41,440 bases of DNA from a virus: positions 1 through 41,440 of the IMG/VR virus record IMGVR_UViG_3300037245_003487; one strand, given 5' to 3'. Shown in pieces: positions 1,782 through 38,303 of this stretch (within the stretch, counting starts at the first letter, position 1; each line of letters begins with the position of its first letter). Below the pieces are notes generated by a model. That model did not search any database, was not told where the DNA came from, and saw nothing but the letters and a program-made list of their open reading frames with translations. A program made the translations under genes and the position numbers.

Positions 1782-1965
1782 TAGAATAGGTGAATTTAAG
1801 GATATAATAATAAATAAATTTTATGGTGGAGATAATAGAGGAACCTGTATATAAATAACCAGAGAAACTGATAACTTCAAAAATGATCCGTTTTTTGATT
1901 ATCTACAATTCACAAAAGAAGAGGTCGAATTTATAATTGAAACATTACAAGATAATTTTTTGTAA
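1774..1965 (+). pseudogene. Small gene with an in-frame TAA stop at 1852-1854
   Basis: An ATG at 1774 overlaps the end of the previous gene and reads MSSRIGEFKD onward to RGTCI, then meets TAA. The same frame continues as ITRETDNFKNDPF through YLQFTKEEVEF to a second TAA at 1963. Codon use and protein character are continuous across the stop. A single C-to-T change in a CAA codon (RGTCIQITR) would explain it. It may be a nonsense pseudogene, a suppressed stop or a sequence error. Confidence 0.6.
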
Positions 1966-2011
1966 TTTTAATGTAAAAACTATTTACTTTTTAGATTTAA
2001 TTTGATATAAA
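1961..2011 (+). promoter_or_regulatory. Promoter with 11-base phased TGTAA boxes
   Basis: TGTAA at 1961, TGTAAA at 1972 and the -35 TTTACT at 1983 are each 11 bases apart. A 17-base spacer leads to the -10 TATAAA at 2006-2011. It reads into the gene starting at 2024. The same arrangement is found at six other places in the window. Confidence 0.8.
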
Positions 2012-2023
2012 TAAGGAGATTGA

Positions 2024-2230
2024 GTGTTTATATTACTCGAGACTTTAGATGATTGTCGATTTTTAACTAGACATTTAACCAAGATAGATTGTGATAACTG
2101 TCTTGATTTAAATAAAATATGCCCTGGAAAAGGCAATGTTATGAGTGAATTTAGGTTTAATACAAAACAAGAATTACTCGAAGGAGTGATTCAATTAACA
2201 GGAGGATTAAATGAAAACAAAAATAATTAA
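2024..2230 (+). CDS. Small Cys-containing protein (68 aa), GTG start
   Basis: This is the first gene after the promoter at 1961-2011. AAGGAG lies five bases before the GTG. The protein contains IDCDNCLDLNKIC, a compact cysteine cluster that may bind metal. Its C-terminus codes the strong AGGAGG site for the next gene, which overlaps by 20 bases. Function unknown. Confidence 0.65.
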   Translation: MFILLETLDDCRFLTRHLTKIDCDNCLDLNKICPGKGNVMSEFRFNTKQELLEGVIQLTGGLNENKNN

Positions 2231-2423
2231 ATGGGTTTTATTTCTAATTTTAATGGGGTTATTAACAATACTGCCATATGTAGGTTTTATCGTCAGTAAG
2301 TTATTGGCTTTATTAGGTGTTTTATTATTAATAGTTTTATTTGGATTAGATTTTTTTAATAAAATTTTTACAGCAATTAAAAACTTTTTTATTAAAATTA
2401 AAAATTTCTTTATAAGGAAATGA
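2211..2423 (+). CDS. Two-helix membrane protein with basic tail (70 aa)
   Basis: ACAGGAGGATTAA precedes the ATG. Two hydrophobic segments cover roughly residues 7-27 and 29-50. The rest is an amphipathic Phe/Lys-rich tail (IKNFFIKIKNFFIRK) containing a short internal duplication. Size and layout resemble holin-like proteins, but there is no direct evidence for that role. Confidence 0.65.
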   Translation: MKTKIIKWVLFLILMGLLTILPYVGFIVSKLLALLGVLLLIVLFGLDFFNKIFTAIKNFFIKIKNFFIRK

Positions 2424-2424
2424 T

Positions 2425-2982
2425 ATGAACTTTCTATTTAAAAAAATAAAAGGAACATGGCGTGATGTTGGTGATTCAGCAAGGACTACTGTTAATATGA
2501 AGCCTGGGACCAAAGAACCTTCATCTGATTGGAAACGTAAAATGCTTTTAGCAGAACATTCTCCAATTAGACAAATTATCGTAAAAGGCATTTGGGGGGA
2601 CTTGAAGTCCTGGGTTTCAGTGCATCTCGTAAGGCATTGGCTTGGAATAGTTCATTGGGTTAGATCTCAAAGATCAGATCGTACTGGAGTGAACCGAGAT
2701 GAGTTAAGGCAAGATGCTTTAGTTGAACATGAAATTGAAGTAAATGCACAGGCAATGATAAATATATCTCGTAAGAGACTGTGTAATTGTGCTTCAAAGG
2801 AAACCAGAGAAGCCTGGAAAGATGTGGTAGAGTCTATTAAAAATGCAGAGCCAGAACTTTATAGATGTTGCGTGAGGGATTGTGTTTACAGATCTCATTG
2901 CTATGAAATAAAATCTTGTAATTATCATAAAACATGGGAATTCCAAGAGGAATTAAAAGATTACCGTGATGGTATAAATTAA
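2425..2982 (+). CDS. ThyX-like (FAD-dependent thymidylate synthase family) protein
   Basis: ThyX makes dTMP from dUMP with FAD and methylene-tetrahydrofolate. This 185-residue protein shows ThyX-like blocks: AEHSPIR near residue 43, HLVRHWLGI near 69 followed by WVRSQRSDR, and EINAQ-like and ISRKRLC elements further on. The canonical RHRxxSxNxxSxR signature is altered (RHW). The C-terminus is Cys-rich (LYRCCVRDC ... CYEIKSC). It is shorter than typical ThyX. The family call rests on remembered resemblance; activity is uncertain. Confidence 0.6.
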   Translation: MNFLFKKIKGTWRDVGDSARTTVNMKPGTKEPSSDWKRKMLLAEHSPIRQIIVKGIWGDLKSWVSVHLVRHWLGIVHWVRSQRSDRTGVNRDELRQDALVEHEIEVNAQAMINISRKRLCNCASKETREAWKDVVESIKNAEPELYRCCVRDCVYRSHCYEIKSCNYHKTWEFQEELKDYRDGIN

Positions 2983-2993
2983 AGGAGGATATT

Positions 2994-3311
2994 ATGTTAG
3001 ATTTTTATATTTATTTTGCACTAGGACTTATCGCAAGTTATATGATATTTATAATAGGCGTTGGCGCTTATTTGCTCTACCTACAAGCGGTATCTTATAT
3101 TAAAGATGAGGAATTTGAGTTTCCAAAATGGCTAATGGATGGCGACTCTTATTCAAGTCAATGCTGGATAGGGTATACGCTTTTAGTTGTTGTATTTTTA
3201 AGCTTTTTATGGCCATTAGCTTTAATAGGTTTTACTGGATGGGGAATTCTTCGTTTATTAAGAAGTGTTTATAGATTAAAAGTTAAAGTAGATAAATTGG
3301 AGGCAAAATAA
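2994..3311 (+). CDS. 'LWP' membrane protein family, copy 1
   Basis: A strong AAAGGAGG site precedes the ATG. The layout is: N-terminal membrane helix, YIKDEEFEFPK block, second helix containing FLWPLALIG, then LLRSVYRLKVKVDKLE, a short heptad-like tail. The same order occurs in the genes at 3311, 4321 and 6636, so these are paralogues. The family is not one I recognise. The stop overlaps the next start by one base. Confidence 0.75.
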   Translation: MLDFYIYFALGLIASYMIFIIGVGAYLLYLQAVSYIKDEEFEFPKWLMDGDSYSSQCWIGYTLLVVVFLSFLWPLALIGFTGWGILRLLRSVYRLKVKVDKLEAK

Positions 3312-3640
3312 TGTGGTATGTAGCAGGAATGATTATTGGTTTTATGGCTTTGGGTGCATCATTAATATTGTATGGGATTATATGTTTTGCGTATTTTTTT
3401 GTGAGCTTTATAAATAGAACTGAGGTTAAATTTCCTAATTATATTAATAAGTTAAACAAGGAGGCTGGATATGATGTACCACCTTTAATAGTTGTTTATT
3501 TATTTATTGGTTTTTGTGGTACATTAATATGGCCTATTGGTATTATAGCTGGAATAGTTACAGTTATAATGTTTGCACTAAGAAGTGTTAATGATATTAA
3601 AGTTAAATTAAAGGAATTAGAGGGAAACAATGAAAAATAA
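3311..3640 (+). CDS. 'LWP' membrane protein family, copy 2
   Basis: This is a paralogue of the preceding gene: N-terminal helix, INRTEVKFPN block, second helix with LIWPIGIIAG, then LRSVNDIKVKLKELE. The ATG overlaps the preceding stop (TAATG), which suggests coupled translation of the pair. Function unknown. Confidence 0.75.
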   Translation: MWYVAGMIIGFMALGASLILYGIICFAYFFVSFINRTEVKFPNYINKLNKEAGYDVPPLIVVYLFIGFCGTLIWPIGIIAGIVTVIMFALRSVNDIKVKLKELEGNNEK

Positions 3641-3911
3641 TACACAAGATCAAATTGAATTATTATTTAATAATTTTAAAGATTTTCTCAAGGAAAAAAA
3701 TAGGCGTTATGGTGATTCTGCAATAAGCCCAGTTAAAGTATTTAGCAGAGTTGAAACATCAGGTCAATTATGTAATAGATTGGATGATAAATTAAGTAGA
3801 ATTAAAAATTCCGATGAATTAAAGAAGAATGATATAGCCGATGTATTTGGTTATACCGCCCTTCTTCTGATACAAATGGGGTGGACTGATTTTGAGGAGC
3901 TGTTAGATTGA
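3630..3911 (+). CDS. Nmad1/DUF1599-like protein
   Basis: The 93-residue product has the pattern EKNRRYGDSAISP, then a VFSRVETSGQLCNRLDDKLSRIKN stretch with DDK and DIADVFGYTALL, typical as I recall of the 'nucleotide modification associated domain 1' family, an all-helical phage family. Its role may be in nucleotide metabolism or DNA modification, but the chemistry is not established. It sits directly before a DUF4406 gene. Confidence 0.6.
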   Translation: MKNNTQDQIELLFNNFKDFLKEKNRRYGDSAISPVKVFSRVETSGQLCNRLDDKLSRIKNSDELKKNDIADVFGYTALLLIQMGWTDFEELLD

Positions 3912-4237
3912 AAACAGTATATATTTTTGGTCCCATGAGCGGATATAAAAACTATAACTTCCTGAATTTCTTCAGAGCAGAGCGAGATTTAATAAAGAAA
4001 GGCTACGAAGTTATTAATCCTGCTCGTGAAGCTTTTGCAATGAAGTCAATCCATGATTATAAAGACTTTAAGGTTATTGATTTAATCAAATTAATACGCC
4101 AAGATGTTAATTGCATAATGAATTATAGCGATGCTCTGTATGGCCTAAAAGGATGGGAATACTCTACGGGCGCACAAGCAGAACATGCTTTAGGTAAATG
4201 GTGTAAAAAAGAAATTTATTATCAGAGTACGTTATAA
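3908..4237 (+). CDS. DUF4406, nucleoside 2-deoxyribosyltransferase-like protein
   Basis: The start is a TTG at 3908 overlapping the previous TGA, with GAGGAG upstream; the next in-frame ATG would remove the first strand. The N-terminus KTVYIFGPMSG, then NFLNFFRAERDL and GYEVINPARE, match the DUF4406 pattern, a relative of nucleoside 2-deoxyribosyltransferases. The 109-residue length fits the family. A role in nucleotide salvage or NAD-like metabolite cleavage is inferred only. Confidence 0.75.
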   Translation: MKTVYIFGPMSGYKNYNFLNFFRAERDLIKKGYEVINPAREAFAMKSIHDYKDFKVIDLIKLIRQDVNCIMNYSDALYGLKGWEYSTGAQAEHALGKWCKKEIYYQSTL

Positions 4238-4242
4238 AAAAT

Positions 4243-4293
4243 AGTAAATAATATGTAAAAAGTATTTACTTTTCTATTTAAAAAGTATATAAG
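4243..4293 (+). promoter_or_regulatory. Promoter with 11-base phased boxes
   Basis: AGTAA at 4243, TGTAAA at 4254 and TTTACT at 4265 are spaced 11 and 11 bases. A 17-base spacer leads to TATAAG at 4288. It drives the gene block starting at 4321. Confidence 0.8.
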
Positions 4294-4320
4294 TATTTAA
4301 TCAAATTAAAGGAGGATTAT

Positions 4321-4701
4321 ATGTTAAATTTATATTTATTTATTTGTACTGTAATGTGTTTTATCTGGAGTGGATTCACTATTTTTCTTTCATTATTAAT
4401 GATAAAAAATAAATGTGCATCATATATTAATGATGAAGAATATCAATTACCAAAAACTATTCAGGGCATGAAACACTTTGGGCCAATTAGTTATTTTAGC
4501 GACTCAGAGGAATGTTTTTCTAGCCATTTTTTTCTAAATTTAATTATGATGGGTGTATTTTATAATGTAATTATATGTTTTTTATGGCCTATATCCGTAT
4601 TGATATTTGTGCCTTGGGGAATACTTTATGTATTAAGATCATTAAAAAGATTAAATAAAAAAATAAATACAATATCAGAAAATTGTAAAAATTGTGAATA
4701 G
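4321..4701 (+). CDS. 'LWP' membrane protein family, copy 3
   Basis: This is the first gene after the promoter at 4243-4293. N-terminal helix, YINDEEYQLPK block, second helix with FLWPISVLIF, then LRSLKRLNKKINTIS. It is closest in layout to the gene at 2994 but has a longer loop. Function unknown; the family is probably membrane-inserted with the coiled tail in the cytoplasm. Confidence 0.75.
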   Translation: MLNLYLFICTVMCFIWSGFTIFLSLLMIKNKCASYINDEEYQLPKTIQGMKHFGPISYFSDSEECFSSHFFLNLIMMGVFYNVIICFLWPISVLIFVPWGILYVLRSLKRLNKKINTISENCKNCE

Positions 4702-4710
4702 GAGGATAAA

Positions 4711-5352
4711 ATGCAAAAACTGTTAATTATAATATGTCTACTTATAACAATGGGGCTATTCTCAGAAGTTGTATTAGATGTCAATGGAAAACAAGTTTTT
4801 TTCAATGAAAAAAAATATCAGCAATTAGTTGATAAATATGAATCTCTTTATGTAGCTAAAAGTGAAAAGCTTTTAAAGAAAATAGTTACAGCTAAAAATG
4901 CGATGTTAGATGCAAGACATGAAAAAGAAGTAGCTTATAATGATAGAGATAAAAAGTGGAAAGCTAAAAAAATAGCTGAGAAAAATGTAGATCTCACTAA
5001 GGAAAAACTTTATCGAGTATGTAGTTTAATTGAAGATCTAAGGCTTGATATAAATGAGCTTAGAGTTTATCTTTATTTTAAACTTAAAATTGAAGCAGAT
5101 GTAGTTCTATTAATTGAGATTCTTGATGGTAAATGGAATTATCTAACTAAAAGAGAGTCTATTTTAAGGGATAGTCTAGCTAAATATGAGGCTGTGTATA
5201 AGATAAAAACCGATGAACATAAAAAATGTGATGATTATTTTCAGTACAGAGTCAGAGTATACAATTACAAGGTTTATCAACTCACAGAATTAGATAAACA
5301 ACTTATATCTCTGCATGAATTTATTAAAGAAAATTATGAGGAGTTAAAATGA
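4711..5352 (+). CDS. Exported coiled-coil protein (213 aa)
   Basis: The N-terminus (MQKLLIIICLLITMGLFSE) looks like a signal peptide, possibly uncleaved. The rest is almost entirely charged helix with Lys/Glu heptads, so a long periplasmic or surface coiled coil is expected. It overlaps the next lipoprotein gene by four bases (ATGA), and the two may form a complex. Family unknown. Confidence 0.65.
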   Translation: MQKLLIIICLLITMGLFSEVVLDVNGKQVFFNEKKYQQLVDKYESLYVAKSEKLLKKIVTAKNAMLDARHEKEVAYNDRDKKWKAKKIAEKNVDLTKEKLYRVCSLIEDLRLDINELRVYLYFKLKIEADVVLLIEILDGKWNYLTKRESILRDSLAKYEAVYKIKTDEHKKCDDYFQYRVRVYNYKVYQLTELDKQLISLHEFIKENYEELK

Positions 5353-5675
5353 AATGGATAATATTTGTATTACTGATATTAATATTTGTAAGTTGTGAAT
5401 ATATTTTACAATGTCCAAATGATAAAATGGCTGGTGTTTGGAAGTATGAAAATGAGAATAATGATGAGCAATACATCTTTAATGATGTAGATAACTTCTG
5501 TGAATATATCAGAGTAGCTGAATATCATTACTTATGGTCATTAAAAGGTGGTAAAATAACATTGCAGCCATGTACAAGCGTGGGATTAAAGCTAGATTCA
5601 ATGCCAAGGACTTATGATATTGAAATAAATAAAAACTATTTAATTATAGATGGTAAAAAATATACAAGGAGATAA
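5349..5675 (+). CDS. Putative lipoprotein, lipocalin-like (108 aa)
   Basis: Lipobox FVSC at about residues 13-16 follows a hydrophobic signal. The mature part begins near MAGVWKYENENNDE and has an alternating strand pattern (WSLKGGKITLQ ... YDIEINKNYLIIDGKKY) like small lipocalin-type barrels. That fold is an inference from pattern only. Start ATG overlaps the upstream stop. Confidence 0.65.
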   Translation: MKWIIFVLLILIFVSCEYILQCPNDKMAGVWKYENENNDEQYIFNDVDNFCEYIRVAEYHYLWSLKGGKITLQPCTSVGLKLDSMPRTYDIEINKNYLIIDGKKYTRR

Positions 5676-5677
5676 TT

Positions 5678-7460: not shown

Positions 7461-7785
7461 TTTAGTTCTATTACTCCTTATGTCATGTACAGGTGAATAT
7501 ATGGAGATTTATCTTTACGAGCATAAAGAATACAAGATGTATATCAATGATTGTTATATAGGTAATACGGTTTATAACCTTAATAAAGGTAGAAGAATTT
7601 TTAGATTCACAGTTGATAAAAATAGAGAAGGTAGATTATACGATGACATCATATACCTGGATAACTTTATTTCACCTATTAAAACTATAATTGTAAAAAA
7701 TTTGAAAATAAAGTTTACATACACAGAAGATTGTGGTAAAGTAATAATAACTTATATAAAAGTTAGGGAGATTGATAATGAGTAA
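7435..7785 (+). CDS. Putative lipoprotein (116 aa)
   Basis: The ATG at 7435 was chosen because it gives a clean signal (MLTNLIKCSLVLLLLMSC, lipobox LMSC) and has GGAAG eight bases upstream, inside the previous gene. The mature part (YMEIYLYEHKEYKMYIND, then INKGRR-like strands) is beta-rich and may be PEGA-like, which is only a guess. Overlaps the neighbours on both sides. Confidence 0.65.
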   Translation: MLTNLIKCSLVLLLLMSCTGEYMEIYLYEHKEYKMYINDCYIGNTVYNLNKGRRIFRFTVDKNREGRLYDDIIYLDNFISPIKTIIVKNLKIKFTYTEDCGKVIITYIKVREIDNE

Positions 7786-8041
7786 TACAATAGATAAACG
7801 ATTAATTAAATTCTGGCAATGGATGGAAGTCAATGAATATGGTATTATAATGGATGAAGGAAATTATTTTATAGATAAAAATGGTGATCCTACGTTGCCT
7901 ACGGATATAATGTTAATGGGGAGTTTGATTCGATATATGGTAGAACATATGGGGCCTACATATCATCTTATGTCATTAACAGGCACGTGTAATGTAGATA
8001 ATGAAATTGAGTGTTTAAAAATTGCTATAGGAGGTATGTAG
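7778..8041 (+). CDS. 'FWQWME' family small protein, copy 1
   Basis: GGGAG lies seven bases before the ATG at 7778. The N-terminal LIKFWQWMEVNEYG block recurs in the gene at 16698 (KFWEWMEEKGYG), so the two are paralogues. The middle has MLMGSLIRYMVEHMG, aligned with MLIGYMYEYA in the other copy. Function unknown; phage hypothetical family as I recall. Confidence 0.65.
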   Translation: MSNTIDKRLIKFWQWMEVNEYGIIMDEGNYFIDKNGDPTLPTDIMLMGSLIRYMVEHMGPTYHLMSLTGTCNVDNEIECLKIAIGGM

Positions 8042-10268: not shown

Positions 10269-10269
10269 T

Positions 10270-14713: not shown

Positions 14714-15124
14714 ATGTATCAAGAAAAAATTATAAAATTTATGAAAGGTAAAGCTGAAAGGTTAAATGAATATGATATTGATATTGAATATATTAATAAT
14801 GATGTTCTGGAAATTATAAGACAATGGGATGACGAGAGTGCTGAATATGTCTGGGGTGATATAGAACATAGTAGAGGTCATGAGTATCTTTGGAATCTAA
14901 CTGGAGATGAATGTCCTTTCTGTGTTTTGCAAAATAAGGATGATTACAACTGCAAAGAGTGTGGATATACTAAGGTTATGAATAATTGTACTGATAAAGG
15001 CTCTACGTGGAATAAAATCCAGGATATATTAAGAAAACGTGATCCAGAGAGTAAAGAGATTTTCACAAAAGAATTCTATAATGATCTTGTGGATAAAATT
15101 AATTGTAAATTAATGGTAAAATAA
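14714..15124 (+). CDS. Cys-rich zinc-binding-type protein (136 aa)
   Basis: The middle carries DECPFCVLQNKDDYNCKECG and a later NNC, similar to the Cys arrangement in the gene at 12973. The last 20 bases of the gene hold the two upstream boxes of the promoter that follows. Function unknown. Confidence 0.65.
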   Translation: MYQEKIIKFMKGKAERLNEYDIDIEYINNDVLEIIRQWDDESAEYVWGDIEHSRGHEYLWNLTGDECPFCVLQNKDDYNCKECGYTKVMNNCTDKGSTWNKIQDILRKRDPESKEIFTKEFYNDLVDKINCKLMVK

Positions 15125-15153
15125 GTTGACTTTATCTTAGGATTTGGTATTAT
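15104..15153 (+). promoter_or_regulatory. Promoter with 11-base phased boxes, inside the end of a gene
   Basis: TGTAAA at 15104, GGTAAA at 15115 and TTGACT at 15126 are spaced 11 and 11 bases. A 16-base spacer gives TATTAT at 15148. The upstream boxes lie in the last codons of the preceding gene. It drives the gene starting at 15173. Confidence 0.75.
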
Positions 15154-15172: not shown

Positions 15173-15613
15173 ATGTTTGGAGTTAAATTTTTAAAGAATA
15201 ATAAATTTCTATACATAATCGTGTTAATATTACTTATACTTGGAACCGTGTTAATGTTTAACTTGGGAATTTTCTGTGGAGGAAAGGGTAGTATAGCTTA
15301 TTATTATATAGTAGATGCAATAATACTATTTACCTTATCAGGAGCTTGTCTTTTATTTAGCATAGATGCTTTTATGAGATTTAGTGAATGGTTATGGACT
15401 GTAAATAAGGGAATTTTCTGGGCTTTTATATCATTGGCTTTAATAGGGATGTTGCATTTTATTGTGTATTTTGCATGTCAATGTAGCCCTAATGGTGGGG
15501 CAATAAGGCTTCAAGAGGCGATGGTGATATTTGGCATTATATACTCCGTAGTTACAGGCATAGCGGTTGGATCATTTATAAGTGAAGACGAAACTAATGA
15601 TTATGAATATTAG
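15173..15613 (+). CDS. Four-helix membrane protein (146 aa)
   Basis: First gene after the promoter at 15104-15153, with AAAGGAGG before the ATG. Hydrophobic segments lie at about 11-31, 41-64, 78-101 and 113-133. No motif beyond a Gly-rich loop (FCGGKGS). Function unknown. Confidence 0.7.
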   Translation: MFGVKFLKNNKFLYIIVLILLILGTVLMFNLGIFCGGKGSIAYYYIVDAIILFTLSGACLLFSIDAFMRFSEWLWTVNKGIFWAFISLALIGMLHFIVYFACQCSPNGGAIRLQEAMVIFGIIYSVVTGIAVGSFISEDETNDYEY

Positions 15614-21477: not shown

Positions 21478-21615
21478 ATGGTTTTAAATTCTAAGGAAGT
21501 TGAATGGTATATTAATATGGTTATTAAATATAGGCTACCAGTATATTGGTTATTTAATTTTTTATATGATTATGAAAGTTTAAGTGAGTATAATGGATTT
21601 TTAGTTGAATGTTGA
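21478..21615 (+). CDS. Small protein (45 aa), possibly frameshifted at its end
   Basis: AGGAGG lies before the ATG. The product contains VEWYINMVIKYRLPVYWLF and ends GFLVEC. Immediately after, a different frame reads VDKSDVLDNSLVYS and DLLPWS to a TGA at 21683-21685. Removing one base near 21610 would join them into one protein of about 69 residues. It is the last gene of the rightward block. Confidence 0.5.
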   Translation: MVLNSKEVEWYINMVIKYRLPVYWLFNFLYDYESLSEYNGFLVEC

Positions 21616-22345
21616 TAAGTCTGATGTGTTGGATAATAGTTTAGTTTATAGCTATGAGATTGAGGATTTACTTCCTTGGTCCTGATGAAAAACTTAAAAT
21701 TATAAATTTTTTATAGCTATGGTCATGATGAAGAAGTGAAAACTGTAAAAATATGAGAATACACCGGACAAAGAAATACATAAACCGCCGTTACTAGTAG
21801 GGGGTATACCCCTTTCATTCTCTCACAGCTTCATACTACCACTTCACAGCTCGTTCTCACATACCACTGATACAATTCCACCATATAAAGGGTCGCTCTC
21901 TCCTGGGTTCATTCTACCACAATACAGAACATGTCAATATACCGCCACTTCTATTCATTATCATGATGGATCGTGTTGCATCAGTGCGTGACGTTGATCA
22001 TTGCTTCATTGGCTAGTCCAGGTTAGATCTATATATAGTTAGTTATCATGAGTAGTATATATAAATATATCTATTGGTTTATATGGTTAGCTGTATAGCG
22101 TAGTATTATATATATGACATATATACTATGCTATATAATGACATACCGGTATATACGTACATACATGCATGATACTATACGTATGACAGGTATCAATATA
22201 GTATACACCTTATAGTAATAGCTGAGGGTACGCATACAGAGTACTACTCATAGGGTTATAGGTTATAATATAGGGTTATATAAGGGCTTGTTAAGGGTTA
22301 CGAAGACTTATGAAGGGTTATGAAAGGGTTTATATGACAGGGCAT
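21616..22345. other. Non-coding convergent island with palindromes and tandem degenerate repeats
   Basis: No gene of convincing length lies here on either strand. The composition differs from its surroundings: 21790-21960 is C-rich and G-poor on the upper strand with repeated CACAGCT and ACCAC words, and 22020-22210 is alternating TA/CA/TG sequence dense in short palindromes (ATACCGGTAT, CATGCATG, ATACGTAT). GGGGTATACCCC is a perfect 12-base palindrome near 21806. It separates the rightward and leftward blocks. A replication, packaging or termination role is possible but not shown. Confidence 0.6.
22094..22135. repeat. Imperfect inverted repeat (hairpin)
   Basis: A left arm starting TAGCGTAGTA and a right arm ending TACTATGCTA meet at TATGACATA. 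The arms pair over about 18 bases with one mismatch and a short bulge. There is no T-run, so it is not an ordinary terminator. Confidence 0.55.
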
Positions 22346-22354
22346 AAAAAAGGG
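22253..22354. repeat. Phased GGG(TTA) repeats
   Basis: GGGTTA-like words start at 22253, 22273, 22284 (GGGC), 22295, 22315, 22326, 22340 (GGGC) and 22352 (GGGC). Several intervals are exactly 11 bases, one helical turn. An inverted copy (ACCCTATAG) follows at 22376. They look like protein-binding iterons. Confidence 0.5.
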
Positions 22355-22380
22355 CAACAACTAATTAAAGTCATTACCCT
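22346..22380 (-). terminator. Intrinsic terminator of the leftward block
   Basis: On the lower strand, AGGGTAATGACT pairs with AGTTGTTGCCCT around a TTAATT loop (12 pairs, three of them G-T), followed by six T. It lies just after the end of the gene at 22405. Confidence 0.75.
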
Positions 22381-22404
22381 ATAGATCATATATGAATATT
22401 TAAA

Positions 22405-22743
22405 TTACTCCTTGTCAATTCTTTTAATCAGCTCCACTATAAGCTCCTTAACCTTATTCTTACTATCATTACAGCCGAAATCAATACCATCAACTAGATC
22501 AAGTAATGGATCTTGCTTTATAGTCTTATAATTTTCAACTGCTTTTAAGAATTCATCTAAAGTTACTTCTGATGCAGTAATACCAGCAGTTGATAAGCAC
22601 CTACGATTAAAATCAATATGAATATAATCCATATTTATTACATTACCTTTTGAAATAGGCCAAATCAAACCATTTTCAAAACATTTCTCTTGTATCGCTT
22701 TACTTACATTTTGATCACTAACTTTGATAAAAATATTATCCAT
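22405..22743 (-). CDS. Small soluble protein (112 aa), last gene of the leftward block
   Basis: AAGGAG lies before the ATG at 22743. The product has KAIQEKCFENGLIWP, YIHIDFNRRCLST and EVTLDEFLKAV, a layout familiar from phage hypothetical proteins that pair a mixed fold with a C-terminal helix. Function unknown. Confidence 0.65.
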   Translation of the reverse strand: MDNIFIKVSDQNVSKAIQEKCFENGLIWPISKGNVINMDYIHIDFNRRCLSTAGITASEVTLDEFLKAVENYKTIKQDPLLDLVDGIDFGCNDSKNKVKELIVELIKRIDKE

Positions 22744-22769
22744 TTTAATTTACTCCTTGTATATTAAAT

Positions 22770-23126
22770 TTACCAATTAGTCCAGCTTGGTTCTAATACG
22801 CCTCTTAAACTCTTGCCTGAATAATACAAATGACCTGTCTTACTTGTACAATTATCATCATAACATAATGTAGTTATCATTCGATCCTTAACTTCTATCC
22901 AGTAAGTAACATTACCAGTATATTTAGTACCTTTAACTATAATACCGTTCTTTATGATCTTGTAATCATCATCATCAGTAATTACAGTTGATCTACCAAT
23001 ACAATTGATCTTACCTTGATTGACTCTAACATGAAGGATCTTGACTTTGCCTTCAATTCTAGTATCACAAGGATAAACACTTAGTAATATACTAAGTAAT
23101 AACATAGTAATAATTATTCTTTTCAT
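22770..23126 (-). CDS. Exported protein (118 aa)
   Basis: A signal-like N-terminus (MKRIIITMLLLSILLSVYP) is followed by CDTRIEGKVKILHV and beta-rich sequence with CYDDNCTSKTG. Cys15-20 region is not a clear lipobox, so a secreted soluble protein is likely. AAGGAG precedes the start. Confidence 0.65.
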   Translation of the reverse strand: MKRIIITMLLLSILLSVYPCDTRIEGKVKILHVRVNQGKINCIGRSTVITDDDDYKIIKNGIIVKGTKYTGNVTYWIEVKDRMITTLCYDDNCTSKTGHLYYSGKSLRGVLEPSWTNW

Positions 23127-23248
23127 TTAATACTCCTTGTATTTATAGTATTTATAATAATTATATGCAATAACTAACTATATAATTAAGTCTCCGGCCC
23201 ATGAGAACATAGCACTTTACGTTGGTAACAGTACATAGTTAAAATTGA

Positions 23249-23404
23249 TTACCTTGAATTTAGCTCGTTTTCTACTGCTTTTAATCGTTTTTTTATATTA
23301 TCTACAGTCCTTTTATTAAATAAAGATCTAAACTCATAATCTAAACATAAGCTGTCTTTCATTGTTTGTAACTCTCCAGAGCTTAATTGGCTTAATTTAT
23401 TCAT
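23249..23404 (-). CDS. Small helical protein (51 aa)
   Basis: AAAGGAAA lies before the ATG at 23404. The product MNKLSQLSSGELQTMKDSL continues with RSLFNKRTVDNIKKRLKAV, a helical pattern. Function unknown; too short for a fold guess. Confidence 0.6.
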   Translation of the reverse strand: MNKLSQLSSGELQTMKDSLCLDYEFRSLFNKRTVDNIKKRLKAVENELNSR

Positions 23405-23462
23405 ACTATTATTTTCCTTTAAACAGAGTCTCAGAGTACTTGCCTATTGCATTAGAGCTGTT

Positions 23463-23591
23463 TTAGTTAATTTTTACATCTAATACAACTATATTACCTT
23501 TAATAAGATCATTAAATTCGATCATATTCATTGTTTTTACTTCAATCTTTGTATCATCATCAACGCTATAGAACACTTCATATTTAATCAT
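23463..23591 (-). CDS. Small protein (42 aa)
   Basis: AGGACGG lies before the ATG at 23591. The product begins MIKYEVFYSVDDDTKIEVKT and ends VVLDVKIN, with strands and an acidic centre. Function unknown. Confidence 0.55.
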   Translation of the reverse strand: MIKYEVFYSVDDDTKIEVKTMNMIEFNDLIKGNIVVLDVKIN

Positions 23592-23603
23592 TTAATACCG
23601 TCC

Positions 23604-23747
23604 TTATTTATTTAATTTATATATTCTCATTATACCATATATTTTATTAGCTCTAATTACATCTAACTCACTTTGAGTAGTTACTGTAGTATAGCTAACG
23701 TCACCAGTTTTAAAGTTCTTAAGTTGTACGTTTGTTAAGTTATTCAT
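23604..23747 (-). CDS. Small protein (47 aa), first gene after a promoter
   Basis: AAGGAG lies before the ATG at 23747. The product is MNNLTNVQLKNFKTGDVSYT and a helix-strand C-terminus. It is first in the short leftward transcript from the promoter at 23775. Function unknown. Confidence 0.6.
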   Translation of the reverse strand: MNNLTNVQLKNFKTGDVSYTTVTTQSELDVIRANKIYGIMRIYKLNK

Positions 23748-23774
23748 ATAATGCTCCTTAGTAAGTTATATCTA

Positions 23775-23834
23775 GTTATACAACTATTTATATTATAATG
23801 CAAGCTTTATTTAATTATTTACATTTGATTTACA
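23775..23834 (-). promoter_or_regulatory. Promoter with TGTAAA pair set one turn further upstream
   Basis: Lower strand: TTGCAT (-35, 23803-23798), 17-base spacer, TATAAC (-10, 23780-23775). Two TGTAAA boxes 11 bases apart lie at 23834-23829 and 23823-23818, so the nearer box is 20 bases from the -35 instead of 11. Confidence 0.65.
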
Positions 23835-24280
23835 TTATAAATAGGTTATTTTCTCTTATAGCACATAGAATATAGTTCATAGCGATTATAAATTAATTAG
23901 ATTGCTTTTAATATTTTAGTAGGGAAGTACATGCGAATTTTGCTACTTCTCACTATCACTATCATTACTATTCACCACAATAATATATATTTATAATCCA
24001 TTACATATACTATTAACAACCATTTAAGCCTTACTACTTAAGTATTACTTAACTTACTTAACTACCACTTAACAACAACTATTGTTAAGTTAACACTAAG
24101 TTAACATACCTAAGATCTAACCATATCAACACTTCAACTACAACACAACACAACACGACACAAGTTAACAATAAGTTAACATATACGACTTAAATTATAC
24201 TTAAGTTAATTAAATTCAATCTAAATTTAATCATTATTAATCAATAATTAATCATTATTTTTTAGAGCCTTTATCATCAG
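23835..24280. repeat. Non-coding iteron-like region
   Basis: About 440 bases without a gene. ACTTAA words start at 24036, 24047, 24056 and 24067. AAGTTAACA occurs at 24087, 24098, 24162 and 24173, in two pairs each 11 bases apart, with a variant at 24203. A 5-base tandem (ACAAC, three exact and one variant copy) spans 24140-24159. The upper strand is nearly free of G from about 23945. The whole looks like a replication origin or regulator-binding array. Confidence 0.6.
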
Positions 24281-24283
24281 TCA

Positions 24284-24382
24284 TTAAGTATAACTCCTGG
24301 AATTATTCCCAATGCATAATATAAAATAGGTATGTTTATTAAAATTTACATCTAGTATAGCTGATAATATTAACTCTTTCAT
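24284..24382 (-). CDS. Short open frame (32 aa), possibly frameshifted membrane peptide
   Basis: AAGGAG lies before the ATG at 24382. The product begins MKELILSAILDVNF and then becomes polar. In the next frame the sequence reads IPILYYALGIIPGVILND, a better membrane segment, ending at 24277. A frameshift near 24338 could have broken one gene. Weak evidence. Confidence 0.35.
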   Translation of the reverse strand: MKELILSAILDVNFNKHTYFILCIGNNSRSYT

Positions 24383-24472
24383 TTTATTAACTCCTTATTA
24401 TTATATACTACTTGTAATAGGAATGATTCATACTGACAAGTATTTAATTATCAAATATAATCTAATTATTAA

Positions 24473-24586
24473 TCATTCGGATTTAAGGCGATCATTCTTT
24501 ATATTTTCACATTCTAAACAAAATATAATCAATTTCCCAACACCATAACCAAGTAAGCTAATAACTAATATAAATAATATAATCAC
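24473..24586 (-). CDS. Single-pass membrane micro-protein (37 aa), GTG start
   Basis: AAAGAGGTG lies before the GTG at 24586, which overlaps the previous TGA. The product has one helix (IILFILVISLLGYGVGKLII) and a tail FCLECENIKNDRLKSE. Function unknown. Confidence 0.6.
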   Translation of the reverse strand: MIILFILVISLLGYGVGKLIIFCLECENIKNDRLKSE

Positions 24587-24744
24587 TTTTTCACCTCTTT
24601 AATCTCTTGATAGATATCAAATAAAATTTTAATATCTCTCATTAAATCATTTTTATTTATATTATCAGATTTATATAATAATATTTGGCTCTGTATTATC
24701 TCAATTCTATTAAAAAATTCTTTGTTTAAATCTTCTATACTCAT
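24583..24744 (-). CDS. Small helical protein (53 aa)
   Basis: The ATG at 24744 overlaps the preceding TGA. The product is one long polar helix pattern (IEIIQSQILLYKSDNINK) ending EIKEVKK, whose codons form the next gene's AGAGGTGA site. Confidence 0.6.
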   Translation of the reverse strand: MSIEDLNKEFFNRIEIIQSQILLYKSDNINKNDLMRDIKILFDIYQEIKEVKK

Positions 24745-32641: not shown

Positions 32642-32643
32642 AA

Positions 32644-33335: not shown

Positions 33336-33336
33336 A

Positions 33337-33534: not shown

Positions 33535-33734
33535 TTTAACTCCTTAAATTGTTCTTTAATGTGATTTATAAGTAATTTCATTATTTTAGGTATTCCCCAA
33601 AAAACATTTAACCACTTATAAAAAACTTTTTTAGTTTTATAATACTCATTATCTACTTGACATAATAATACAGTAAGTACACCAGTATAATAACAAGAAA
33701 TAATTAAACTTGTAAAAAATATTAAATTAAACAT
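33531..33734 (-). CDS. Single-pass membrane protein (67 aa)
   Basis: AGGAGGG lies before the ATG, which overlaps the transglycosylase stop. One N-terminal helix (FNLIFFTSLIISCYYTGVLT) is followed by a basic region (WGIPKIMKLLINHIKEQF). Directly next to the transglycosylase, so it may act with it. Confidence 0.65.
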   Translation of the reverse strand: MFNLIFFTSLIISCYYTGVLTVLLCQVDNEYYKTKKVFYKWLNVFWGIPKIMKLLINHIKEQFKELK

Positions 33735-34417
33735 TAATCCCTCCTATAAACTATAATTTTTTCAATATGATCTGTTAATATAAAAAGCTTATAAACTCTT
33801 GAAATATAACTCTTAATAAGAAATTCATTTTTTAATTCAATTTGCTTTTTATAACGTTCAATTATTTGTTTTTTAATAAATATAAACTTTGTTATATATC
33901 CTTTAGTTTCATCAGGAAGATACATTTTAATCTTTATAATTTCAAGTGAATTTGATCTCCTAATTATATGATTAAGATTACCTATACCGTGATTATAAGC
34001 TATTAAACTTAATATTATATCAGTTGATCCATATCGTTGTTTAATGTATTTCCTGATCCATTGCATATAATAAGAACCTGCTTTGATGTTATCGCCTGGA
34101 TTATTGAGATCATCAACAGGAATTTGCTTTCTTATATCCTTTAATGTATCTGGCATTATTTGCATTAAACCCTTTGCGCCTACCCATGATAGAGCTTTTG
34201 GATTAAGTGTTGACTCAATATATGACTGAATCTTTAAGTCAATCCAGTCATTCCCAAATTCAGCACCATATTTTTTAAATAAATCATCATATTTCTTTTG
34301 AGATTCAACATAATTAATATCAAAGTCTGATAAAGAAAATAAGCCACCTGTAATAAATAATAATGAAATTATAATTATCATTACAATTAAACAATTATCA
34401 ACTATCCAATTTTTCAT
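33734..34417 (-). CDS. Membrane-anchored lytic transglycosylase (SLT family)
   Basis: SLT enzymes cleave the MurNAc-GlcNAc bond of peptidoglycan to give anhydro ends. ATG at 34417 follows GGGTGG; 227 residues. An N-terminal helix (about 9-29) anchors it. The SLT core shows catalytic Glu68 in YIESTLNP, SWVGAKGLMQIMPDT at 77-91, NIKAGSYYMQW at 110-120 and LIAYNHGIGN near 138-147. A helical C-terminal part (about 150-227) has no known match. It may serve lysis or, if packaged, entry. Confidence 0.88.
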   Translation of the reverse strand: MKNWIVDNCLIVMIIIISLLFITGGLFSLSDFDINYVESQKKYDDLFKKYGAEFGNDWIDLKIQSYIESTLNPKALSWVGAKGLMQIMPDTLKDIRKQIPVDDLNNPGDNIKAGSYYMQWIRKYIKQRYGSTDIILSLIAYNHGIGNLNHIIRRSNSLEIIKIKMYLPDETKGYITKFIFIKKQIIERYKKQIELKNEFLIKSYISRVYKLFILTDHIEKIIVYRRD

Positions 34418-34419
34418 TT

Positions 34420-34776
34420 TTACCACCCTAATTCTTTTATTAGATCTTCTTTTTTTTCTTTTAATCGTTCAGCTATTTCTCTTAAATCATTTTCAATTTG
34501 AAACTCAACATCATCAATACTATCAGTTATAAGCTCTTTAGCTACTGAGGTTACATGACTGTCGTATTGTGTATAAAACTTTTTCATACAGTCTGTAAAG
34601 TCAAGTTCATGATTATTGATTTTAAAAGTTATATCAAACTTACCATTTCTATCTGTTAGCTGCTTTAAATATTCACTGCCTTTATCAAATAGTTTAGCTG
34701 TTTCTAAAGCTTCGAAAAACAACCACTCTGTAAATTCATTTGAAGTTATGTTACTTATGTCCATGTCTTTATTCAT
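34420..34776 (-). CDS. Acidic helical protein (118 aa)
   Basis: AAAGGAG lies before the ATG at 34776. The product EFTEWLFFEALETAKLFDKG continues to a C-terminal acidic helix (AERLKEKKEDLIKELGW). First gene after the promoter at 34804. Function unknown. Confidence 0.65.
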   Translation of the reverse strand: MNKDMDISNITSNEFTEWLFFEALETAKLFDKGSEYLKQLTDRNGKFDITFKINNHELDFTDCMKKFYTQYDSHVTSVAKELITDSIDDVEFQIENDLREIAERLKEKKEDLIKELGW

Positions 34777-34803
34777 AATACACTCCTTTTAATAAGTTAA
34801 ATC

Positions 34804-34853
34804 ACTTTAACATTTTTGATTCAAAAGTAAAGATATTTTACATTTAATTTACA
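34804..34853 (-). promoter_or_regulatory. Promoter with 11-base phased boxes
   Basis: Lower strand: TGTAAA at 34853, TGTAAA at 34842 and TTTACT at 34831, 11 bases apart each. A 16-base spacer leads to TAAAGT at 34809-34804. Drives 34420-34776 and the genes after it. Confidence 0.75.
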
Positions 34854-34856
34854 AGA

Positions 34857-35258
34857 TCAATCTAATGTATCGAAAATAACCTCTTTATCTTTATCTGACA
34901 ATATAGAAAAAAATCCCCTCTCATCAATTTTAACTTCCTTGGTTTTTTCATCTTTATAAACTAGTCTTTTCATTAAAGTTATAAATTCATTTTGTGATTC
35001 AAGTTCTCTTCTTAATTCATCATTTTCATTATCAAGATCATAATTATGATCTTCTAATTCTTCCTTACAATCTGGGCAAAATAATTTTTCATGATCTTCA
35101 AATCCTATTTCAATTCCACATGTGCATTGTAATCCTTCGATAGTATATTTCATACCATGAGTTTCTTTTTGAAAAGCTCTAATATAATCTTCGCAATCAA
35201 TTGAATTTATATGTTCCCTTATTTCTTGCCTTAATTTATCAGTTTTTAAATAACACAT
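34857..35258 (-). CDS. Zinc-ribbon plus coiled-coil protein (133 aa)
   Basis: AAAGGAG lies before the ATG. The middle has LQCTCGIEIGFEDHEKLFCPDC, a zinc ribbon with CxC and CPxC, followed by an acidic coiled coil (NENDELRRELESQNEF). Function unknown. Confidence 0.65.
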   Translation of the reverse strand: MCYLKTDKLRQEIREHINSIDCEDYIRAFQKETHGMKYTIEGLQCTCGIEIGFEDHEKLFCPDCKEELEDHNYDLDNENDELRRELESQNEFITLMKRLVYKDEKTKEVKIDERGFFSILSDKDKEVIFDTLD

Positions 35259-35651
35259 TTAAAGCTCCTTTTTTAATTCTTTAAGTTCTTTTTCTAATTT
35301 AGCAATCTTGTACTCAATAGCTTTTTGTTTTTCTGGATCTTCGTATTGAGTATGATCCTCAAAGCCTAATTTTAAAAGTTCATTAATAAAATCATCCTGT
35401 GATACTTTTTTACTATCTAATTCTGGTAATAATTTAAATAATTCAGGATAATATTCAAACGCTTTCCATGAATCATTAAACATCATTAGTCTTGGTGTTA
35501 ATTCATTATCTCTTAAATCACGCCATGTAATATTAAATTCCATTGTACAACCACCATCATCAGTATAATCACCAATTAATATTTCTGGATCATCTAAAGT
35601 TAAGCTTTTAGCATACCAGGCTTTATTAGTTATAACAAAACATTTATTCAT
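35259..35651 (-). CDS. Conserved phage-type protein (130 aa)
   Basis: ATG at 35651 follows AAAGGAG; a longer frame upstream overlaps the previous gene without a site. The product has CFVITNKAWYAKSLTLDDPE, GDYTDDGGCTMEF, LTPRLMMFNDSWKAF and a C-terminal coiled coil (IAKLEKELKELKKEL). Familiar from phage hypothetical proteins; function unknown. Confidence 0.7.
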   Translation of the reverse strand: MNKCFVITNKAWYAKSLTLDDPEILIGDYTDDGGCTMEFNITWRDLRDNELTPRLMMFNDSWKAFEYYPELFKLLPELDSKKVSQDDFINELLKLGFEDHTQYEDPEKQKAIEYKIAKLEKELKELKKEL

Positions 35652-35652
35652 A

Positions 35653-35796
35653 TTATTCTCCTTTATTGTATTCAAAATAATGCTCTAAACCAGCTTTAAA
35701 AACTAAATTATATATTTCTGTTTTGGTCTTTAATCTTAAAATGCTTTTTAATAAGTTGGCTTTCTTTGCTAACCTTTCATTAACTCTTATTATCAT
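35653..35796 (-). CDS. Ribbon-helix-helix-like small DNA-binding protein (47 aa)
   Basis: GGAGGT lies before the ATG at 35796, which overlaps the previous gene. The product MIIRVNERLAKKANLLKSIL, then RLKTKTEIYNLVFKAG, has the strand-helix-helix order, size and basic charge of Arc/CopG-type repressors. It may regulate this operon; the fold is inferred from pattern. Confidence 0.6.
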   Translation of the reverse strand: MIIRVNERLAKKANLLKSILRLKTKTEIYNLVFKAGLEHYFEYNKGE

Positions 35797-36280
35797 TAAT
35801 ACCTCCATTTTCAAGATCACACTTTAAACATTTATTTTTATCCATACTACATATACTACATGGTAAAATTAATTTATTACATGAAGGGCATACTTGAATT
35901 TTCCTTTCATTTTGCAATGTGACATCAATATCGCAAACAGGACAATATTCAGTGCAAAATTCACCTGGATTATCATTTACATAATTATCAATAGAACAAT
36001 CTATAGTTTCCCAGATTATACCATAACTGCAATCATGTAAACTTTTTATATTACTAAGAATGTTTTTTGCTTGCTCCTTATTTATAACGATATTGTGATC
36101 CTTTGCTTTATCTATAACATCTATAATATTCCATTTAATAGATATTTCATTATTATCTTCAAATATCGGTTTTAAAACTTCATAAAGTTCTTTCACCTGC
36201 TCTTTACGCATATAATATTTTAAATTATGTTCTTTATTTATTAACTCAAAAATATCATTACATTCTATTACTTCAAACAT
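35780..36280 (-). CDS. Multi-domain Cys-rich phage-type protein (166 aa)
   Basis: Three parts are visible: an N-terminal EVIECNDIFELINKEHNLKY domain, a helical NKEQAKNILSNIKSLHDCSY and IIWETIDCSIDNYV part, and a C-terminal zinc ribbon (YCPVCDIDVTLQNERK, CPSCNKLILPCSICS, CLKCDL). Each part resembles small phage proteins I know singly, so the gene looks like a domain assembly. AAAGGAG precedes the ATG. Confidence 0.7.
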   Translation of the reverse strand: MFEVIECNDIFELINKEHNLKYYMRKEQVKELYEVLKPIFEDNNEISIKWNIIDVIDKAKDHNIVINKEQAKNILSNIKSLHDCSYGIIWETIDCSIDNYVNDNPGEFCTEYCPVCDIDVTLQNERKIQVCPSCNKLILPCSICSMDKNKCLKCDLENGGINDNKS

Positions 36281-36296
36281 ATAAAACTCCTTTTAA

Positions 36297-36638
36297 TTAT
36301 TTCTTTGCTTTTTTCTCTTTAAGTTCAGTGATATTAAATGTTTCACTTTCAGTTTTTTTAACTGATTTTTTAAATTGATAATCTGTTAAGTATTTTTTAA
36401 GTAAAACATAATCAGCTTTCTTACTTTCTGTTGGTGAGATAATAAGAGAATAATTTTTGTTATCAATTTTTAAAGTTCTATCAATTGCATTTTTGACTTT
36501 ATCTACTACACTAATACCTTTACTTTCCTTAAAAAGCTTTTTAATTTCAACCTTTACAGCTTTTTGTTTTTTATCGGCTGCACTTTTTATTTTACCATAC
36601 TTAAGATACTCCATAAATTTATCTTCTAATTTAGTCAT
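36297..36638 (-). CDS. Basic protein (113 aa), first gene after a promoter
   Basis: AGGAG lies before the ATG at 36638. The product is Lys-rich at both ends (ADKKQKAVKVEIKKLF, ELKEKKAKK). It may bind nucleic acid. No family recognised. Confidence 0.6.
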   Translation of the reverse strand: MTKLEDKFMEYLKYGKIKSAADKKQKAVKVEIKKLFKESKGISVVDKVKNAIDRTLKIDNKNYSLIISPTESKKADYVLLKKYLTDYQFKKSVKKTESETFNITELKEKKAKK

Positions 36639-36692
36639 TTAACACTCCTATGTTTTTATTAAGCAATCCAATGTTGCTTTTGATTTAATCGA

Positions 36693-36742
36693 ATTATAAT
36701 TGATTTGATTCAAAAGTCAAATTATTTTACACTTAATTTACG
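36693..36742 (-). promoter_or_regulatory. Promoter with 11-base phased boxes and consensus -10
   Basis: Lower strand: CGTAAA at 36742, TGTAAA at 36731 and TTGACT at 36720, 11 bases apart each. A 16-base spacer leads to TATAAT at 36698-36693. Drives 36297-36638 and onward. Confidence 0.8.
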
Positions 36743-36843
36743 AAAAACTTAACAAGCACTGTTTATTGTAAATCTGGATCTAATTCTGATCTAATGTTGA
36801 TAATATATGATATTATAAATTAACTTATATTAAGGAGGCAGAT

Positions 36844-36924
36844 ATGGAATTAATGATAGCTTTTGTAATTGGTTTATTTATAGGCTGCTTTTTAGGAGTT
36901 ACCATAATTTATATTATTAACTAA
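36844..36924 (+). CDS. Single-pass membrane micro-protein (26 aa), rightward
   Basis: A strong AAGGAGG lies before the ATG. The product LMIAFVIGLFIGCFLGVTII is one helix with Gly at regular spacing, like the micro-proteins at 20498 and 20793. It is the only rightward gene in the leftward half; TTGATA and TATTATAAA lie upstream but no clean promoter is seen. Confidence 0.55.
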   Translation: MELMIAFVIGLFIGCFLGVTIIYIIN

Positions 36925-37455
36925 AAATTCGCAATTCGAGAACAGCGAACAGATCTATAAAATTCATTACTTATCACAAAGTCCAAAAATCTCGACAAAT
37001 TCCGATGAGAATTTTGAAAATCCGAAAACATTAATATATCCCTTGCGTGAACTCTTCAAAGTCCGACGAAAGTTTTGACTTGAAACTTCGACTAAAAAGT
37101 TGTTAAAATTCCAAGGAAATATTATTACCTATCAATTAAATCACATGAAATTTTCATTAAAATGAAATAAGTGTGGAAATTCTACTAAAACTCACAGCTA
37201 AATTGCATGAATTTTCAATATAATGAAAAATAATAATTTGAAATTACGAGGAATTGTTGGGTTATTAGCTTAATTTGTTGGACAAATCTAAGGTATTATG
37301 TAGGTATTATAGGAAATTAGTTTATAAAGTTGAAAAAAATAAATTGAGTTTTTGAAATGTTCTAAACTGTCAAAAATATTTGATGAAATTAATCCTAAAT
37401 AAAAAATTTGAAAAAGTAAAAGTATTATATTCTTAAAATAAAAATCATGATAAAT
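36925..37455. repeat. Non-coding region with degenerate direct repeats
   Basis: About 530 bases without a gene. AAA(G/T)TCC(G/A)A words occur near 36982, 37001, 37021 and 37062 (steps of 19, 20 and 41 bases). A longer unit (CCGA ... TTTTGA) is repeated at about 37002 and 37063. Two copies of a 34-base unit (ATGAAATTTTCATTAAAATG in the first) lie at 37137 and 37199. Confidence 0.5.
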
Positions 37456-37477
37456 AAAAAGCCAGAATTAACTGGCT
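37456..37477 (-). terminator. Intrinsic terminator after the gene at 37486
   Basis: Lower strand: AGCCAG, loop TTAATT, CTGGCT, then TTTT. Six pairs, four of them G-C. It sits directly after the stop of the gene at 37486. Confidence 0.75.
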
Positions 37478-37485
37478 CAATATAA

Positions 37486-38103
37486 CTAATCGTGTCGTAA
37501 ACATATCTCAATTATTTTATTAGCAATTTTTTTAACTACTTCACGCTGCTCATCACAATCAAAATTTAATGTATCGATGAATTGGTTTATGTCAGATTGT
37601 GGAATATTTTCTTTTTTCTCTACAAGCTCAAGACAATAAAATGGCCAAGACCAATTATCATCAACTTTAAAACTTCCATTTTCCACTGTTGTAATAACAA
37701 CTACATCACCAATGTAATCATTTATTGAACTAAACTCAGTAAGTTCACATCCATACTCACCGTCCTTAAACCCTCGTGCTATCCTAACTTTATCTCCTAA
37801 GCCTAAGCCACATTCTTTAAACATCTTTAAATAAGCTTTTGTGCTATTCATTATATCCTCCTTTAATTTTAAACCTTCTTGTGTTATGACATAGTAAAGA
37901 TTATTGTGTAATATAATATATCTATTATCACCATAAGCAATACTATAATATACAACATCACATACAGCGCCTAAAAATAATACATTCCCATGATCATGTC
38001 TTACTTCATTCAATCCAGTATGATTGAAGATTTCAGTACAATAAGGGCAAATACAACCACTATTTATTACTTCTACTTTATCATCAATATTAAACTTTCT
38101 CAT
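37486..38103 (-). CDS. Composite frame: two SH3-like phage proteins joined
   Basis: Residues 1-84 start RKFNIDDKVEVINSGCICPYC and end EGLKLKEDI. Met85 (ATG 37851) is preceded by AAAGGAGGA, and the second part begins MNSTKAYLKMFKECGLGLGD with DKVRIARGFKDGEYG, IGDVVVITTVENG and DNWSWPFYCLELVEK. Each half is a small barrel-like protein of the sort phages often carry singly. LKED at the junction is the same end seen in separate genes at 16236 and 18283. Single-gene transcript. Confidence 0.7.
   Translation of the reverse strand: MRKFNIDDKVEVINSGCICPYCTEIFNHTGLNEVRHDHGNVLFLGAVCDVVYYSIAYGDNRYIILHNNLYYVITQEGLKLKEDIMNSTKAYLKMFKECGLGLGDKVRIARGFKDGEYGCELTEFSSINDYIGDVVVITTVENGSFKVDDNWSWPFYCLELVEKKENIPQSDINQFIDTLNFDCDEQREVVKKIANKIIEICLRHD
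37849..37864 (-). promoter_or_regulatory. Internal ribosome binding site and ATG inside a composite frame
   Basis: Lower strand AAAGGAGGA (37864-37856), then ATG at 37851-37849, in frame. It would yield a separate product of 121 residues and codes the K-E-D-I linker in the fused one. Confidence 0.6.
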
Positions 38104-38124
38104 AATATATCTCCTTATTTCCTA

Positions 38125-38175
38125 TTTATACCACAACTAAATCTCAAAGTAAACAACTTTTACACTTAAGTTACA
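38125..38175 (-). promoter_or_regulatory. Promoter with 11-base phased boxes
   Basis: Lower strand: TGTAAC at 38175, TGTAAA at 38164 and TTTACT at 38153, 11 bases apart each. A 17-base spacer leads to TATAAA at 38130-38125. Drives the gene at 37486-38103. Confidence 0.8.
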
Positions 38176-38176
38176 A

Positions 38177-38246
38177 TAAAAAAGGATCAGCTTATTAAGC
38201 TGGTCCTTTCAAAGGAGTATTTAATTACGTATTGTAATTATGATTA
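38177..38246 (-). ncRNA. Candidate small RNA between a promoter and a terminator
   Basis: The promoter at 38253-38303 should start transcription near 38246, and the terminator ends near 38178, leaving about 70 bases with no gene. The RNA would have a 5' hairpin (AATTAC / GTAATT), an unpaired-capable ACTCCTTT that is complementary to AAAGGAG binding sites, and the terminator stem. It could instead be an attenuated leader of the gene at 37486. Predicted only. Confidence 0.45.
38178..38209 (-). terminator. Strong intrinsic terminator
   Basis: Lower strand: AAAGGACCAGCTTA pairs with TAAGCTGATCCTTT (one G-T or mismatch), followed by T-run to six T. It lies between the promoters at 38253 and 38125. 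Confidence 0.8.
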
Positions 38247-38252
38247 TAATTT

Positions 38253-38303
38253 ATAATAACATATTTTAAATATAAAGTAAAGTCTATTTACATTTTGCTT
38301 ACA
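38253..38303 (-). promoter_or_regulatory. Promoter with 11-base phased boxes, no gene directly after it
   Basis: Lower strand: TGTAAG at 38303, TGTAAA at 38292 and TTTACT at 38281, 11 bases apart each. A 17-base spacer leads to TATTAT at 38258-38253. A terminator follows about 45 bases later. Confidence 0.75.

Follow-up and report, generated by a model that had tools for sequence, protein, structure and literature searches.

The middle promoters of phage T4 form a phage-wide class marked by an extra sequence box, the MotA box, and a weak -35 hexamer. In Firmicutes, all of which have WalRK (PMC9210968), the response regulator WalR (also called VicR or YycF) has the site TGTWAH-N5-TGTWAH (PMC9210968, PMC4168254); among the WalR sites of S. 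aureus, those lying upstream of the -35 go along with activation, and those within or below the promoter with repression (PMC10746227). Host control of phage genes by PhoB has tested precedent in cyanophages (PMC10976474). In B. subtilis, the C-terminal domain of the RNA polymerase alpha subunit (alpha-CTD) has UP-element subsites centred at -43 and -53 and supports ribosomal-protein genes (PMC4495994). Here we describe a promoter element in IMG/VR record IMGVR_UViG_3300037245_003487, a 122,610-bp virus record of which bases 1-41440 make up the stretch analysed (the window; 41,440 nt). Two TGTAAA-like boxes and the -35 each start exactly 11 bp apart, and the same promoter plan occurs in 20 copies in the whole record. 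We propose that the non-structural genes of the phage are probably switched on by a borrowed host factor.

Like a WalR box, the element consists of TGTWAH-type direct-repeat hexamers with a 5-bp spacer (an 11-bp period) upstream of the -35. Unlike known WalR boxes, those described here, which are predicted sites, are phage-borne, stand at ~20 promoters at one fixed distance to the -35, and in bacteria precede genes that are not mainly cell-wall genes. The cyanophage case (S-PM2, P-SSM2) likewise pairs a set of phage promoters with a host OmpR-family regulator, here a proposed one; however, it involves degenerate Pho boxes, few genes, phosphate limitation and gel-shift evidence, whereas the present element is rigid, near-invariant, found at most non-structural promoters and predicted from sequence. 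UP-element subsites share its promoter-relative positions and A-richness, but each box of this phage has TGT with a conserved G and is not a plain A/T tract. As in T4, the element marks a phage-wide promoter class with extra boxes and a weak -35; here, however, two boxes lie upstream of a recognisable -35, and the family searches made found no MotA or AsiA relative in the phage.

A phased promoter class across the record

The phased promoters first noticed in the window are real. All seven sites of the original prediction are present, by direct reading and by exact pattern (Table 1). The 11+11 bp phasing of box 1, box 2 and -35 holds at 7 of 7, and each has a 16-17 bp spacer followed by a TATAAT-like -10. 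The leftward coordinates given earlier are the left ends of the sites, whose box 1 copies start at 34853, 36742, 38175 and 38303. The site at 15104 does have its upstream boxes in coding sequence, and boxes lie inside an open reading frame (ORF) at five further sites, all outside the window.

We obtained the 20 sites by scanning the whole record with a position matrix seeded by the strict pattern and removing reverse-strand echoes manually; the list was partly picked by eye, so its sequence logo describes selected sites. The consensus is TGTAA(n)-N5-TGTAAA-N5-TT(T/G)AC(T/A)-N16/17-TAnnnT, with the boxes at about -57 and -46. Box 1 reads (T/a/c/g)GTAAn, in which GTAA is invariant (G at -56 in 20 of 20). 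Box 2 reads TGTAAA, with G at -45 in 19 of 20 and AAA at -43 to -41 in every site. The TATAAT-like -10, usually preceded by TG, lies 16-17 bp past the -35. The edges of the logo are sharp, with no comparable conservation farther upstream. One site, 50493(-), has its boxes in a triple array.

Counts that are independent of the choice by eye give the same picture. The exact pattern matches 13 times in the record, as compared to 0 for the reversed pattern. Genomes simulated with a third-order Markov model had a mean of 0.01 matches and never more than 1; the record has 13 when the full -35 is required and 17 when TTKAC suffices. Of the start-to-start distances from GTAAA to TTKACW, 25 were 10 bp and 19 were 21 bp, whereas each of the other distances from 6 to 25 bp occurred 0-4 times.

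The placement of the sites is equally non-random. Rather than being strewn inside genes, box 1 is intergenic at 14 of 20 sites, as compared to 10% of the genome. As anticipated for a matrix scan, hits fall at predicted transcript starts: 16 of 20 lie 45-110 nt ahead of an ORF preceded by a ribosome-binding site (5-9.5% of random positions do so), and three of the remainder have their predicted starts at a tRNA gene, at a tRNA-like region and at a short RNA that ends in a terminator. At 68568(-) the predicted start coincides exactly with the 5' end of tRNA-Glu, and at 50493(-) it is that of the tRNA-like region. A scan of the whole record placed none of the 20 sites in the structural block (82.4-120.9 kb), where sigma-A-like sites at 119951 and 108011 lack boxes. 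Thus, the proposal of a helically phased, co-regulated promoter set is well supported.

The element at bacterial promoters

We scanned 84,980 prokaryote species genomes for the two boxes, the -35 and a perfect TATAAT, and identified 64 loci, ~56 of them labelled Clostridia and many Ruminococcus. The same downstream genes recurred across genomes with differing spacer letters: rpsO, rplU, rnpA, ctsR, thrS and a zinc-uptake gene. The element also precedes rpsL, tRNA and assorted other genes. With three mismatches allowed, there were 38 matches in 11 bacterial genomes and 10 in the phage, as compared to 0 for the reversed pattern; when only the boxes were displaced by 4 bp and the promoter was kept, 1 match remained across all twelve genomes.

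We also examined 400 kb of one Ruminococcus genome (G029), choosing 88 promoter-like sites regardless of boxes. TGTnAA peaked precisely at -22 and -11 from the -35, with 8 and 5 cases, respectively; TGTGAA variants, in which the G is retained, are among them. No such peak was seen in a second Ruminococcus genome or in Tepidibacter. Phased boxes occur at rpsO, rplU and some other promoters in six Ruminococcus genomes (G018, G021, G026, G029, G030 and G043), where they possibly define a small regulon; the rplU and rpsO promoter copies examined were all selected by the pattern. Since the same phased element stands at bacterial promoters, mostly of Clostridia, a host factor is indicated. Moreover, since the module is limited to a small subset of promoters in some Clostridia, a specific regulator fits better than general contact with the polymerase. 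Our literature search found no description of a phased element at Clostridia rpsO, rplU or tRNA genes.

Other phages yielded little. At the stringency that gives 16 matches in this phage, weak matches number 0-1 in each of SPO1, K, A511, EF24C, Twort, phiCD27 and pCD1602_4. In IMG/VR, we found a comparable multi-copy set on no other contig. An 87.8-kb viral contig, IMGVR_UViG_3300036945_000242 (G004; L017, L027, L028), carries GTAAAG boxes at three promoters that are nearly identical; the boxes are spaced 11 bp from each other and stand 10 bp ahead of TTGACT, the phase being that of this phage. We considered as relatives the viral contigs carrying the element (scattered single matches, an iteron-like set (L344-L346) and the G004 promoters); none was shown to be related.

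Candidate readers of the boxes

Because the boxes resemble a response-regulator site and occur at bacterial promoters, a host factor has probably been co-opted by the phage. The best reading of the sequence, the repeat geometry, the position and the bacterial occurrence is that this factor would be a host OmpR-family regulator. We tentatively suggest, with confidence somewhat short of even, that the paired boxes are one site for such a protein, most likely WalR or a near relative that shares the PhoP/WalR type of specificity, acting as an activator. The phage sites match the WalR consensus exactly in 7 of 20 cases and within one mismatch in 19 of 20. In all 20 the boxes lie directly upstream of the -35 at a fixed distance, as at activated WalR promoters. 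Two regulator subunits would bind head to tail on TGTAAn-N5-TGTAAA, at about -57 to -41. From there, just upstream of a sigma-A promoter that is weak (-35 TTTACT or TTGACT) and often has an extended -10, they would recruit host RNA polymerase. The ~20 promoters would then form one regulon, comprising small genes of early type, genes of DNA and nucleotide metabolism, and tRNAs. It would be linked to a host regulator that is active while cells grow, with the structural block served by other promoters.

Several observations weigh against WalR or a relative. Five of 20 box 1 copies have G where WalR requires A, C or T; the box positions coincide with those contacted by alpha-CTD; each bacterial genome has only a few such promoters; and the genes that follow the element in bacteria show no enrichment for cell-wall hydrolases, the usual WalR targets, although our strict pattern may miss many WalR sites and the genomes searched need not belong to the host's clade. 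We found no report in the literature of WalR reading phage promoters. A Kayvirus paper that mentions WalR was set aside as a precedent; its subject is host autolysins, not phage promoters.

The contact with alpha-CTD could itself be the explanation. The boxes would then be a clostridial UP element, the AAA of each bound at about -42 and -53 by the alpha-CTDs of host polymerase, making strong phage promoters without an activator. The boxes, at -46 to -41 and -57 to -52, do match the B. subtilis subsites, the AAA of box 2 falling at an alpha-CTD position, and the bacterial promoters with the element include those of ribosomal-protein, rnpA and tRNA genes. Yet the invariant G at -56 and the near-invariant G at -45 are unexpected for minor-groove reading of A/T tracts, which is the main argument against this account. 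Only a discrete minority of Ruminococcus promoters is boxed (~5-8 of 88 in G029), and the seven other large or Firmicute phages have next to no matches. We consider an UP element the main rival, though a doubtful one.

The original prediction favoured a phage-coded activator, or contact by a modified RNA polymerase. By analogy with T4 MotA, an early DNA-binding protein might act on the tandem boxes to turn on middle genes. The density of the element in the phage, which is ~hundredfold that in the searched bacteria, is consistent with this, as are its absence from other large Firmicute phages, the lack of a similar contig among those found in IMG/VR, and the fact that most of the ~226 ORFs called are unannotated. 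However, the ORFs scanned yielded no recognisable regulator: we detected no match in the phage to an OmpR-type DNA-binding domain (PF00486) or sigma region 4 (PF04545), and when the remaining ORFs were scanned against Pfam and PHROGs, there was no regulator among the families listed (at most the top 25 per set), with most small ORFs matching nothing. Within that scope, a phage-encoded regulator of the boxes is rated unlikely. An activator of this kind would also leave unexplained why rpsO and rplU have the same phased promoters in several Ruminococcus genomes. This part of the earlier interpretation is therefore unsupported, and we regard a MotA-like phage activator as improbable.

Finally, a phage or host repressor acting on a GTAAA-N5-TTTAC inverted repeat over the -35, with box 1 as an extra half site, is very improbable: TTTAC serves as the -35 in 10 of 20 sites and creates the dyad there, but the sites split evenly between T and G at position -33 (10 each), so half of them lack it, and the two boxes, set at a direct-repeat distance, are equally conserved.

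Sites in the window, neighbouring features and implications

Sites in the window comprise the seven promoters and an eighth, weaker one that is new (Table 1). Besides the starts at ~2019 and ~4301, transcription is predicted to begin at about 7750, 15161, 34796, 36685, 38117 and 38245, and would do so ahead of the structural transcripts. Site 7 is predicted to give a short RNA, located between a Maf-like gene and site 6, whose terminator hairpin has a folding energy of -17.9 kcal/mol (z = -6.2).

Table 1. Box-bearing promoters and a putative RNA in the window (positions as in the window; starts and downstream features are predicted)
Feature	Position	Strand	Box 1	Box 2	-35	Spacer	-10	Downstream
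Site 1	1961..2011	+	TGTAAT (1961)	TGTAAA (1972)	TTTACT (1983)	17 bp	TATAAA	start ~2019; ORF 2024-2230
Site 2	4243..4293	+	AGTAAA	TGTAAA	TTTACT	17 bp	TATAAG	start ~4301; ORF 4321-4701
Eighth site (weaker, new)	7692..7742	+	TGTAAA	TGAAAA	TTTACA	17 bp	TAAAGT	ORF 7778-8041
Site 3	15104..15153	+	TGTAAA	GGTAAA	TTGACT	16 bp	TATTAT	ORF 15173-15613 (both boxes within ORF 14714-15124)
Site 4	34804..34853	-	TGTAAA	TGTAAA	TTTACT	16 bp	TAAAGT	ORF 34420-34776 and transglycosylase-domain ORF behind it
Site 5	36693..36742	-	CGTAAA	TGTAAA	TTGACT	16 bp	TATAAT	ORF 36297-36638
Site 6	38125..38175	-	TGTAAC	TGTAAA	TTTACT	17 bp	TATAAA	ORF 37486-38103
Site 7	38253..38303	-	TGTAAG	TGTAAA	TTTACT	17 bp	TATTAT	intrinsic terminator directly after
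Putative ~66-nt RNA from site 7	38180..38245	-						ends in stable hairpin and T run

The gene content of the record, which is possibly incomplete, is that of a contractile-tailed phage (portal, major head protein, tail sheath, tape measure and terminase); it also encodes a DnaB-type helicase, a ribonucleotide reductase and NAMPT. ORFs were called by a simple script. Searches for close relatives with the capsid, sheath, terminase and Maf-like proteins gave distant phage matches or none, and the single IMG/VR match was a fragment of the same phage (L014).

The Maf-like protein is a Maf/MptE-like glycosyltransferase of the flagellin glycosylation type (902 aa, with TPR repeats; window 38312-41020 (-)) that had no match in the phage collection. 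The phage also encodes DegT aminotransferase, epimerase and cytidylyltransferase families, which together with the Maf-like protein suggest a surface-sugar pathway. Assignment of the host through the glycosyltransferase was dropped, since its best bacterial matches have only ~30% identity.

Behind the box-bearing promoter at 50493(-), record positions 50050-50440 (-) (L009:8650-9040) hold tRNA-like sequences between two homing-endonuclease-type ORFs. One, of ~117 nt, is not called by ARAGORN; the next has its tRNA 3' half before its 5' half, and is called as a tRNA once the halves are rejoined. An Rfam match here to a Y RNA-like family (YrlA) stays below threshold (24.1 bits, E 0.007). A Ro60/TROVE gene was sought in the phage and none was found; an RtcB-like family was matched.

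The large subunit of ribonucleotide reductase is split by an intein with a LAGLIDADG domain (record 61305-64195; L010:5-2895). A 685-aa protein of phrog_1735, with no known function (L009:10305-12359), has 44-46% identity over its full length to proteins of large phages that infect many unrelated hosts. At 21600-24600 of the window, rightward and leftward gene blocks converge in a sparsely coding, repeat-rich junction that includes paired AAGTTAACA repeats.

Our analysis exposes a phased promoter element in Clostridia, at rpsO, rplU and tRNA genes. We raise, as a possibility somewhat less likely than the involvement of WalR or a relative, that a lytic-type phage has put nearly its whole non-structural programme under one growth-linked host response regulator of this kind, copying a rigid Clostridia-type operator-promoter module of ribosomal-protein and tRNA genes. 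If true, this would mean that a phage uses a host two-component regulator across its genome rather than for single genes, and it would couple infection to the growth or envelope state of the host.

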